A stretch of 64,000 nucleotides of DNA, taken from contig NC_011891.1 of NCBI RefSeq assembly GCF_000022145.1, forward strand, positions 3,950,501-4,014,500. Direction: 5' to 3'. The position numbers and the translations under genes are program-made. Below the pieces are notes generated by a model. The model had not been told where the DNA came from. It searched no databases and saw only the letters and a list, made by a program, of their open reading frames with translations. Of this stretch, positions 3,805 to 25,928 are shown in pieces; position 1 is the first letter of the stretch; every line of letters starts with the position of its first letter. Source of the DNA: Anaeromyxobacter dehalogenans 2CP-1. GTDB taxonomy: Bacteria > Myxococcota > Myxococcia > Myxococcales > Anaeromyxobacteraceae.

Positions 3805-5139
3805 ATGCGCACTCCGAGACACATCGTCGCCGCCGTGGCGCTGCTCGCAGCCACCGGCGCCGGCGCCGACACGGTCGAGGTCACCTCGACCACCCTCGTC
3901 TCCGCCGGCCAGCAGGCCCGCGACCGGCGCCTGGGCGAGGCGCCCGACCTCGTCACCGTGGTCCCCGCCTACGAGATCGTCAACATCACGGCGCGGGACA
4001 TCCGCACGTCCATCGCCGACGACCTGCAGCTCCAGCTCTCGGGCTGGGGCTCCTACGACTTCGACAGCCTGCGCTGGGACAACGGCACCAGCGAGTCGCT
4101 CACCGGCGACCTGATGAGCGCGCAGGTGCAGGCGAAGTTCCTCGACCGGCGCCTCACGCTGCGGCTGGGCCGCGAGCACGTCATGAGCGGCGTCGCGCGC
4201 ATGATCCAGATCGACGGCGGCGAGGCCATCCTGGTGCTGCCCGGCGGCTTCCGGCTCTCCGGGTACGTCGGCTCGCCGGTGGCGCAGCGGTTCGCGTCGC
4301 GCTCCGGCGTGAAGAGCTGGAACCCGGCCGGCGGCGACTTCGCCTACGGCGGCCGGGTCGGCTGGTCGCTGGCGATCCCCGGCCACGCCGGGCGCGGCCT
4401 GGACGTGGGCGCGTCGGCGAACGTGGTCGAGGACGCGGGCGACCCCGTCCGCCAGGAGGTGGGCGCGGACTTCCGGCTGCAGCCGCTGCAGACCGTGTCC
4501 TTCACCGGCTTCGGCGCGTTCAGCGTCTACGACGAGCGCTTCAGCGAGGCGAGCGTGGCGGCGCGCTGGAAGCCGGTGCACCGGCTGGAGGTGAGCGCCG
4601 ACTGGCGGTTCCTGGCGCCGGACCTGTTCCTGGCGCGGAACTCGATCCTCTCGGTGTTCTCGGCCTCCACGCGCAAGGAGTACGGCGTGGGCCTCGACTA
4701 CGAGCTCGGGCGCGGCCTCTCGGTGGGCGCCGACTACCACCTCTCGGTGGAGCCGGGGGAGACCACCGAGGACGACAGCTACCTCGGGCACGACCTGGTG
4801 ATGCGCGCCGACTGGACCCGCGGCGCCACCGACGCCGGCGCCGAGGTCACCTACCTCGACGCGCTCGAGAACGGCTACTGGGCGGGGCGGCTCTACGGCA
4901 AGCAGGGCTTCGGCAAGGTGTTCGCCGCCGCCGACGTGATGAGCTACTTCTTCAAGGAGGACGTGAACGGCGAGTCCTTCGCCGTCACCGGCTCCCTCAG
5001 CGGCGGCATCGAGCTGGCCCGCGGCTTCAGCGCGGTGCTGTCGGGCCGCGCCGGCGTCACCCCGTACATGGAGCAGACCTACGACGTCATGGCGAAGCTC
5101 GTCTACAACCAGACCTACACGGTGCGGGAGGTGCGGTGA
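3805..5139 (+). CDS. Putative outer-membrane beta-barrel (porin-like) protein
   Basis: A 444-residue protein with an N-terminal signal peptide (hydrophobic stretch to about residue 20, cleavage near Ala-Gly-Ala-Asp). The rest alternates polar and hydrophobic residues with many aromatic girdle positions, such as RLTLRLGREHVMSG and GVGLDYELGRGLSVG, as expected for a transmembrane barrel. I chose ATG 3805 over the in-frame GTG 33 bp upstream because it begins the signal peptide. Its TGA stop overlaps the ATG of the 12-haem cytochrome, so the two are translationally coupled. By analogy with porin-cytochrome conduits it may sheath the cytochrome across the outer membrane. It is not recognisably MtrB or OmbB by eye. 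Confidence 0.72.
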   Translation: MRTPRHIVAAVALLAATGAGADTVEVTSTTLVSAGQQARDRRLGEAPDLVTVVPAYEIVNITARDIRTSIADDLQLQLSGWGSYDFDSLRWDNGTSESLTGDLMSAQVQAKFLDRRLTLRLGREHVMSGVARMIQIDGGEAILVLPGGFRLSGYVGSPVAQRFASRSGVKSWNPAGGDFAYGGRVGWSLAIPGHAGRGLDVGASANVVEDAGDPVRQEVGADFRLQPLQTVSFTGFGAFSVYDERFSEASVAARWKPVHRLEVSADWRFLAPDLFLARNSILSVFSASTRKEYGVGLDYELGRGLSVGADYHLSVEPGETTEDDSYLGHDLVMRADWTRGATDAGAEVTYLDALENGYWAGRLYGKQGFGKVFAAADVMSYFFKEDVNGESFAVTGSLSGGIELARGFSAVLSGRAGVTPYMEQTYDVMAKLVYNQTYTVREVR

Positions 5140-24657: not shown

Positions 24658-24741
24658 GCCGCCGCGGCGCCGCCGGCGCACGGCCCCGGCGGCCGCGGCC
24701 CGGCCGGAACCCTTCCGCCCGATCCCGGCTCCCACCCCACC

Positions 24742-25068
24742 ATGAGTGCCCCCACCGAGACGACTCCCACGATCGAGGTGACCGATGCAGCGCGCACCGC
24801 GCTCCTCGAGCACCTCTCCCGCGACCCGCAGAGCCGCTACGTGCGCATCCACGTCGGCCATGGTTGAGGTGGCATCAGCTACCAACTGACTCTGGACGAG
24901 TCGGCCGACCCCGAGCGCGACGCGCTCATCGAGCAGGACGGGATCACCTTCCTCGCGGAGCAGCGCCAGAAGCACCTCATCCCGGGGCTCCGCATCGAGG
25001 TGCAGAAGGTGTTCGGGCGCGAGGGCCTGGTCGCCTGGAACTCGGCCTTGGAGGGCGGCGCCTGCTGA
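24742..25068 (+). CDS. HesB/IscA-like selenoprotein with in-frame UGA (Sec42)
   Basis: A 108-codon gene in which codon 42 (24865-24867) is TGA. Upstream it encodes IEVTDAARTALLEHLSRDP and YVRIHVGHG. Downstream, in the same frame, it encodes GGISYQLTLDESADPERDAL, then ITFLAEQRQKHLIPGLRIEV and a final GGAC. The joined HG-U-GGISY matches the GGCSGLSY-type loop of IscA/HesB scaffolds, with selenocysteine at the first conserved Cys, and Cys108 is the other likely ligand. A hairpin at 24886-24904 fits a bacterial SECIS element. HesB-like selenoproteins are a known family. The likely role is iron-sulfur or redox chemistry. Read as a normal stop, the gene would be wrongly cut to 41 residues. Confidence 0.88.
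24886..24904 (+). promoter_or_regulatory. Candidate SECIS hairpin
   Basis: CTGACTC pairs with GAGTCGG (7 bp, one G-U) around the loop TGGAC. There are 25 nt between the UGA and the loop, and the loop has G at its second position. Both agree with what I know of bacterial SECIS elements. A smaller hairpin, GGTGGC-ATCA-GCTACC at 24868-24883, lies immediately after the UGA and could compete or assist. Confidence 0.6.
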
Positions 25069-25119
25069 GGTCGGCGCCCCCGGGGCGCGGCGGCGCTTGA
25101 CGCTTCCCAGCCCTTGCGG

Positions 25120-25161: not shown

Positions 25162-25548
25162 ATGCAACCGAAGCCTCGGGAAGGTCCGCGCTGGGCGCGC
25201 GGGCAGAAGTTCACGCTGTCGCTCGCCGGGCGCGACGCCGAGGAGGCGTACCGCGCAGCGGTGCTCGACGCGCGTGGCGCCGGGCGTGCGGTGCTGGACA
25301 CGGCGCTGGCCGCCTGGGCCTCGCCGCGCGCGGTGGAGCCGGGCGACGGCGTGCTGCTGGGCGAGCTGAAGGGCAAGCCGCGCGGCCTCTCCGACTTGGG
25401 CCACGCGCTCGAGGACGCCGGGATCCCCGGCGCCGAGGTGCGGGCCGCCCTCGACCGGCTGGTCCGCGCCGGCCTCGCCGAGCTGGTCCCGCTCGCCTCG
25501 CAGCTCGAGGCGCAGCGCGCGCCTCCGCCCGTCACCGGCCGGTGGTAG
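25162..25548 (+). CDS. Small hypothetical protein
   Basis: A 128-residue protein I do not recognise. A basic N-terminus (KPREGPRWARGQKFTLSLAG) is followed by a short helical region, then VEPGDGVLLGELKGKPRGL. The last third, GLSDLGHALEDAGIPGAEVRAALDRLVRAGL, looks like a winged-helix or helix-turn-helix segment, so DNA or RNA binding is possible. The ATG at 25162 sits just after a TTGACA-type promoter candidate. It follows the selenoprotein gene by 93 bp and converges on the ArfB-like gene. Confidence 0.6.
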   Translation: MQPKPREGPRWARGQKFTLSLAGRDAEEAYRAAVLDARGAGRAVLDTALAAWASPRAVEPGDGVLLGELKGKPRGLSDLGHALEDAGIPGAEVRAALDRLVRAGLAELVPLASQLEAQRAPPPVTGRW

Positions 25549-25560
25549 CGGCCCCCGGCG

Positions 25561-25928
25561 TCACTCCCACCCGCGCCGCGAGGCCTTCCGCTCGCCGCGG
25601 CGCTTCTTCTCGGTGAGCCGCCGCTCCTTCGCGCCGCGCGTCGGTCTGGTGGGCCGCCGCGGCTTGGGCCGGTGCGCGAGCGGCTGGAGGCGCGCGCGCA
25701 GCCGCTCCAGCGCCGCGCCGCGGTTCTGCAGCTGGCTGCGCCGCTCGGTGGCGGTCACCGTGATCGCGGTGGGCCGGTGCACCAGCCGCACGCCGCTCTC
25801 GGTCTTGTTGCGGTGCTGGCCGCCGGGCCCGCCGCCCACGAAGAAGCTCTCGTCGCACTCGGCGAGCAGCGCCTCGTCGGGCAGGGCGAGCGCCCGGCGG
25901 GCCTCGGCCCGCAGCGCCTCGGGGACCG

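Follow-up and report, generated by a model that had tools for sequence, protein, structure and literature searches.

A predicted HesB/IscA-like selenoprotein of Anaeromyxobacter dehalogenans 2CP-1 and its divergent, so far Sec-only branch in Myxococcota

Does the in-frame TGA at codon 42 of a short gene in Anaeromyxobacter dehalogenans 2CP-1 terminate translation, or does it specify selenocysteine (Sec, U) within a longer protein of the Fe-S carrier type? The gene lies in a window of 64,000 nucleotides, the whole stretch analysed here, in a host genome made up of a single contig of 5,029,329 bases. On the plus strand, the frame opens with ATG at 24742, runs into the TGA at 24865–24867, continues for 66 further codons and closes with a second TGA at 25066–25068, giving a hesB/iscA-like gene of 108 codons plus stop (24742–25068). 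Read with UGA as Sec, the translation is MSAPTETT...VRIHVGHG-U-GGISYQLTLDES...EGGAC, with DALIEQDGITFLAEQR as the tryptic peptide after the UGA, and the sole Cys codon of the protein is the last one (Cys108, 25063–25065, plus strand). The Pfam family Fe-S_biosyn (PF01521) matches residues 11–96, across the TGA, with 36.3 bits against a gathering cut-off of 26.3. A first-pass annotation of this DNA had proposed a single IscA-type frame interrupted at codon 42 and followed by 66 codons ending in GGAC; the frame coordinates agree with it, and the joined protein is recognized by the IscA/HesB-type family model.

The same protein was found in 12 of the 60 genomes searched, its own included, and every copy contains a single TGA, always at that codon. 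The 11 Myxococcota orthologues are 44–95% identical to the window protein, and the carriers comprise genera of the same family and a second family of the order; the protein of Anaeromyxobacter sp. PSR-1 (94% identical) was the sole match in a single-sequence scan of genome contigs. The 12-member alignment holds 23 invariant columns, located on both sides of the UGA, and all 11 complete members retain both U42 and C108, the end of the remaining one (G044) being cut by a contig end. Across 195 Myxococcota genomes, a wide gap separates members (E < 1e-33) from ordinary A-type carriers (E > 1e-11), and a Cys-for-Sec version was not found among them; viral contigs yielded no relative of the selenoprotein. 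The three closest genomes differ by 7 codons after the UGA, too few for a useful dN/dS. Homologues with a random stop and a decayed downstream frame had been named as evidence that would count against Sec; the orthologues instead conserve the sequence downstream of the TGA.

A predicted bacterial SECIS (bSECIS) hairpin follows the UGA at 24886–24904 (plus strand). Its 5′ arm, CUGACUC (24886–24892), begins at a distance of 18 nt from the UGA and its 5-nt loop, UGGAC (24893–24897), at a distance of 25 nt, and the 3′ arm GAGUCGG (24898–24904) completes a 7-bp stem of about -8.3 kcal/mol. Published rules for bSECIS elements call for a loop of 3–9 nt with a G within its first two positions, a stem of 4–16 bp, a distance of 16–37 nt from the UGA and an energy of <= -7.5 kcal/mol (PMC13188914), and the window hairpin falls within every one of these limits. 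The earlier description of a 7-bp hairpin with a G-containing loop thus stands as a SECIS candidate conserved among relatives; its placement 25 nt downstream applies to the loop and not to the stem, which begins after 18 nt. The window contains 370 TGAs, and 59 of them (16%) are accompanied by a stem of 7 bp or more that fits the permitted geometry, so the hairpin taken alone is weak evidence for a SECIS. An Rfam scan of 24700–25100 gave only a chance match.

What exceeds chance is conservation: the TGA at the same codon in 12/12 members, a 7-bp stem with compensatory change, and a clustering of A/T wobble bases. Among 13 distinct sequences, 97.8% of stem cells are paired. At the fourth stem pair seven of these sequences have U-A, two A-U, two G-C and one G-U, and in that of G006 the pair is broken. 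Covariation reached 0.245 versus 0.112 in shuffles (0/500 attained 0.245) and at most 0.048 in slid controls, with the proviso that the shuffle control ignores relatedness and that the A-U state represents one clade. The changes in this one pair go along with exchanges among Thr, Ser and Ala in the protein: the window clade reads L-T-L-D-E-S and most others L-S-L-D-E-T, a swap that preserves the base pair. The G006 orthologue carries one stem mismatch, and the fold of that lone sequence favours another hairpin. The T at the wobble position of codon 50 forms part of the sixth stem pair and is kept in all 15 Sec sequences, whereas wobble T accounts for 1.1% in the neighbouring genes (GC3 ~98%), where TCT is used for 0/73 Ser codons and ACT for 0/90 Thr codons. 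A/T wobble bases of the selenoprotein gene cluster at the UGA and the stem, and 3′ of codon 50 there are zero A- or T-ending codons.

The host genome encodes tRNA-Sec (selC, anticodon UCA), SelB and SelA, together with a SelD whose own gene contains an in-frame TGA; all four genes of the pathway, including the selC and selB whose absence had been named as a possible refutation, are therefore present. SelA also scores above cut-off in all 12 genomes with the selenoprotein gene. SelB with tRNA-Sec would decode the codon-42 UGA as Sec, and this decoding is predicted because the UGA is kept, the SECIS hairpin is conserved and the genome holds the full Sec machinery. If the TGA were instead a true stop, which is what the standard code prescribes for an in-frame TGA, the locus would be a pseudogene or a 41-residue peptide followed by an unrelated downstream region, and the frequency of chance SECIS-like stems near TGAs lends this reading some room; it is nevertheless very improbable, given downstream protein sequence conserved across families, a TGA fixed in every member, a compensatory hairpin and complete Sec machinery. 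Sec insertion at codon 42 is strongly supported as a prediction, the gene is almost certainly read through with Sec despite its apparent stop codon, and the first-pass interpretation of the UGA is very probably right.

An AlphaFold2 model built on the 12-sequence alignment (pLDDT 84.8, with low confidence for the C-terminal tail, residues 105–108) found its best PDB matches in IscA (1r94; Z 13.6, 2.3 Å over 96 residues) and SufA (Z 11.9), supporting an IscA-like fold for the modelled protein. Aligned with ordinary A-type carriers, U42 falls on the invariant Cys of GGGCSG, the first cluster Cys of these proteins (GCxG), as the first-pass annotation had proposed, and C108 falls in the CGC region. 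In 11/11 members whose end is known, a Gly-rich stretch terminating in Cys takes the place of the C-terminal CGCG of ordinary carriers. The window protein therefore departs from the classical pattern of three ligand Cys, Cx(n)CxC, and with Sec in the first Cys slot and Cys as its last residue it would offer two soft ligands, U42 and C108. With the CxC reduced to one Cys, the cluster chemistry must differ. Relative to IscA, ErpA and SufA, the protein shares the fold (Z 12–14) and the position of the first ligand, but it has Sec for the Cys35-type ligand, a single C-terminal Cys in place of CxC, and a strongly supported branch that sets it apart.

Proteins of a similar kind have been described. 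TIGR01911 (HesB_rel_seleno; e.g. Methanococcus, Geobacter, Desulfovibrio) comprises small HesB/IscA-like selenoproteins with Sec in a GUGG segment, for which a 2026 catalogue gives the motif UxGP (PMC13188914). The window protein resembles them in size, type and Sec placement but reads UGGI; 11/12 members have UGG followed by I, V, W, M or Y, and UGGP occurs only in G044 (L029). It scores 20.8 bits against TIGR01911 (curated cut-off 66.35) and 42.8 bits against NF038090 (IscA_HesB_Se; curated cut-off 85), below both thresholds. In other Myxococcota genera, two loci encode NF038090-type Sec proteins with GUGGP and a CGSC tail (L114, ~4000–4320; L115, minus strand, ~4000–4330); they score 115 and 103 bits, respectively, showing that the NF038090 family with an in-frame TGA exists in this phylum. 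Their hairpin occupies the same place and has the same loop type (UGGAN) as that of the window gene. In a phylogenetic tree, a 100/100 branch separates every Sec form from the Cys-type carriers, whereas the inner order among Sec forms is not trusted because of the long branches of the NF038090 and Cytobacillus sequences. The Cytobacillus sequence is an IscA-like ORF with an in-frame TGA (GUGGP) on Cytobacillus firmus plasmid p1 (L116, 4001–4231; NZ_CP107028.1, 238052–238282). It has a SECIS-type hairpin, no Cys in the likely protein and no gene listed at the site, and lies between peroxiredoxin and rhodanese genes in a TusA/DsrE/rhodanese cluster; similar matches occur on three other Bacillaceae plasmids.

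The window protein and the HesB-like selenoproteins described so far probably share an ancestor, and the question is whether the window protein is simply one of them. The IscA type, the Sec at the first cluster Cys within a GUGG core, and the hairpin position and loop shared with L114 and L115 would suit an ordinary member of TIGR01911 or NF038090, as would the grouping of all Sec forms beyond the 100/100 branch. We consider such plain membership unlikely, though, since the window protein stays well below both cut-offs, of which L114 and L115 clear that of NF038090, lacks the Pro after GUGG that is missing in 11/12 members, and ends in one Cys rather than CGSC. We conclude from these comparisons that the window protein represents a separate, divergent and so far Sec-only branch of a known selenoprotein kind; the earlier assignment as a HesB-like selenoprotein is right as to kind and does not extend to straightforward family membership. 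A 2006 survey reported 11 selenoproteins in A. dehalogenans, with no HesB-like one among them (PMC1794560), so the branch was overlooked there and the selenoproteome of this organism would grow beyond that list. HesB/IscA selenoproteins, known for about twenty years, would gain a subfamily outside current family models, a moderate surprise to a specialist. As the branch is Sec-only with just one Cys besides, it may serve as a minimal system for asking why an Fe-S-carrier-like site would need selenium.

The best overall explanation, which we consider likely, is a 108-residue selenoprotein of IscA/ErpA fold, decoded by SelB and tRNA-Sec, with U42 and C108 as the putative site of an accessory Fe-S or metal carrier. 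Sec42 takes the position that the first cluster-ligand Cys has in IscA/ErpA; together with Cys108 it would make up a selenolate/thiolate site, probably within a homodimer, that would bind or hand on an Fe-S cluster or a metal. Such an accessory carrier would work alongside two ordinary A-type carriers with Cys that this genome also encodes (G000:C1:4051180 and 697813); because these classical carriers are already present, the selenoprotein is seen as an extra one. The carrier role as such has, in our estimate, a little under an even chance, slightly more than any single alternative. Against it stand the loss of the classical C-terminal CxC to a single Cys, neighbours that vary between lineages and give no hint of Fe-S biogenesis, the dispensability of the gene, and the precedent of Methanococcus maripaludis, whose HesB-like selenoprotein, the most thoroughly studied of this kind, was found by 75Se labelling, has no clear function and can be disrupted in a mutant that still fixes nitrogen (PMC11097638).

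Sec42 and Cys108 might instead make a selenol/thiol pair on the IscA scaffold that carries out redox or sulfur-transfer chemistry, with no cluster site, for instance as a selenenyl-sulfide switch or a persulfide acceptor. This is a serious possibility, if somewhat short of even: the sole Cys sits at a flexible C-terminus without CxC, redox function is thought typical of most selenoproteins (PMC13188914), and the Sec-type IscA-like ORF of the Cytobacillus plasmids is found amid TusA, DsrE, rhodanese and peroxiredoxin genes. The fold, however, is neither that of a peroxidase nor of a thioredoxin, and together with the Sec position it is that of Fe-S/iron-binding A-type carriers; the Cytobacillus protein, for its part, is highly divergent, with an end branch of 3.4, and has no Cys at its C-terminus. 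A Sec-only IscA-fold branch in which Sec and one C-terminal Cys perform selenol chemistry on persulfides, metals or metalloids instead of Fe-S carriage is a more doubtful proposal, and we offer it tentatively. The accessory carrier site remains our preferred reading.

Gene context was considered as a clue to function and rejected, since neighbours vary by lineage and the small downstream ORF is independent of the selenoprotein gene. In Anaeromyxobacter the order is helicase, LolA-like, SWEET-like, DUF488 (divergent), selenoprotein gene, small ORF, RF-1-domain gene, lolD and lolE, the LolA and Lol names having been assigned partly by eye. In two other carriers (G022, G014) the helicase and the small ORF remain and DUF488 does not adjoin the selenoprotein gene, and in three more (G006, G025, G044) the gene lies among different neighbours. 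In a sister genome (G004) the gene order is otherwise unchanged, DUF488 and the small ORF stand ~180 bases apart, and there is no trace of the selenoprotein gene between them. The significance that the first-pass annotation had attached to the divergent DUF488 gene is not upheld, as the two adjoin only in Anaeromyxobacter and G004 retains the order without the selenoprotein gene. The gene is gained or lost as a single unit, and it is dispensable, since the sister genome, whose locus is otherwise similar, and many SelA-positive relatives do without it. A DsrE-like neighbour suspected by eye in G006 returned nothing in Pfam, NCBIfam and PDB sequence searches. The small conserved ORF (25162–25548, plus strand) matches no family above cut-off and is found in most relatives, whether they carry the selenoprotein gene or not. 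A gene with an RF-1 (release-factor-like) domain (25561–25926, minus strand) lies two genes downstream of the selenoprotein gene; it is probably unrelated to the UGA-recoded gene, because G004 keeps it without the selenoprotein.
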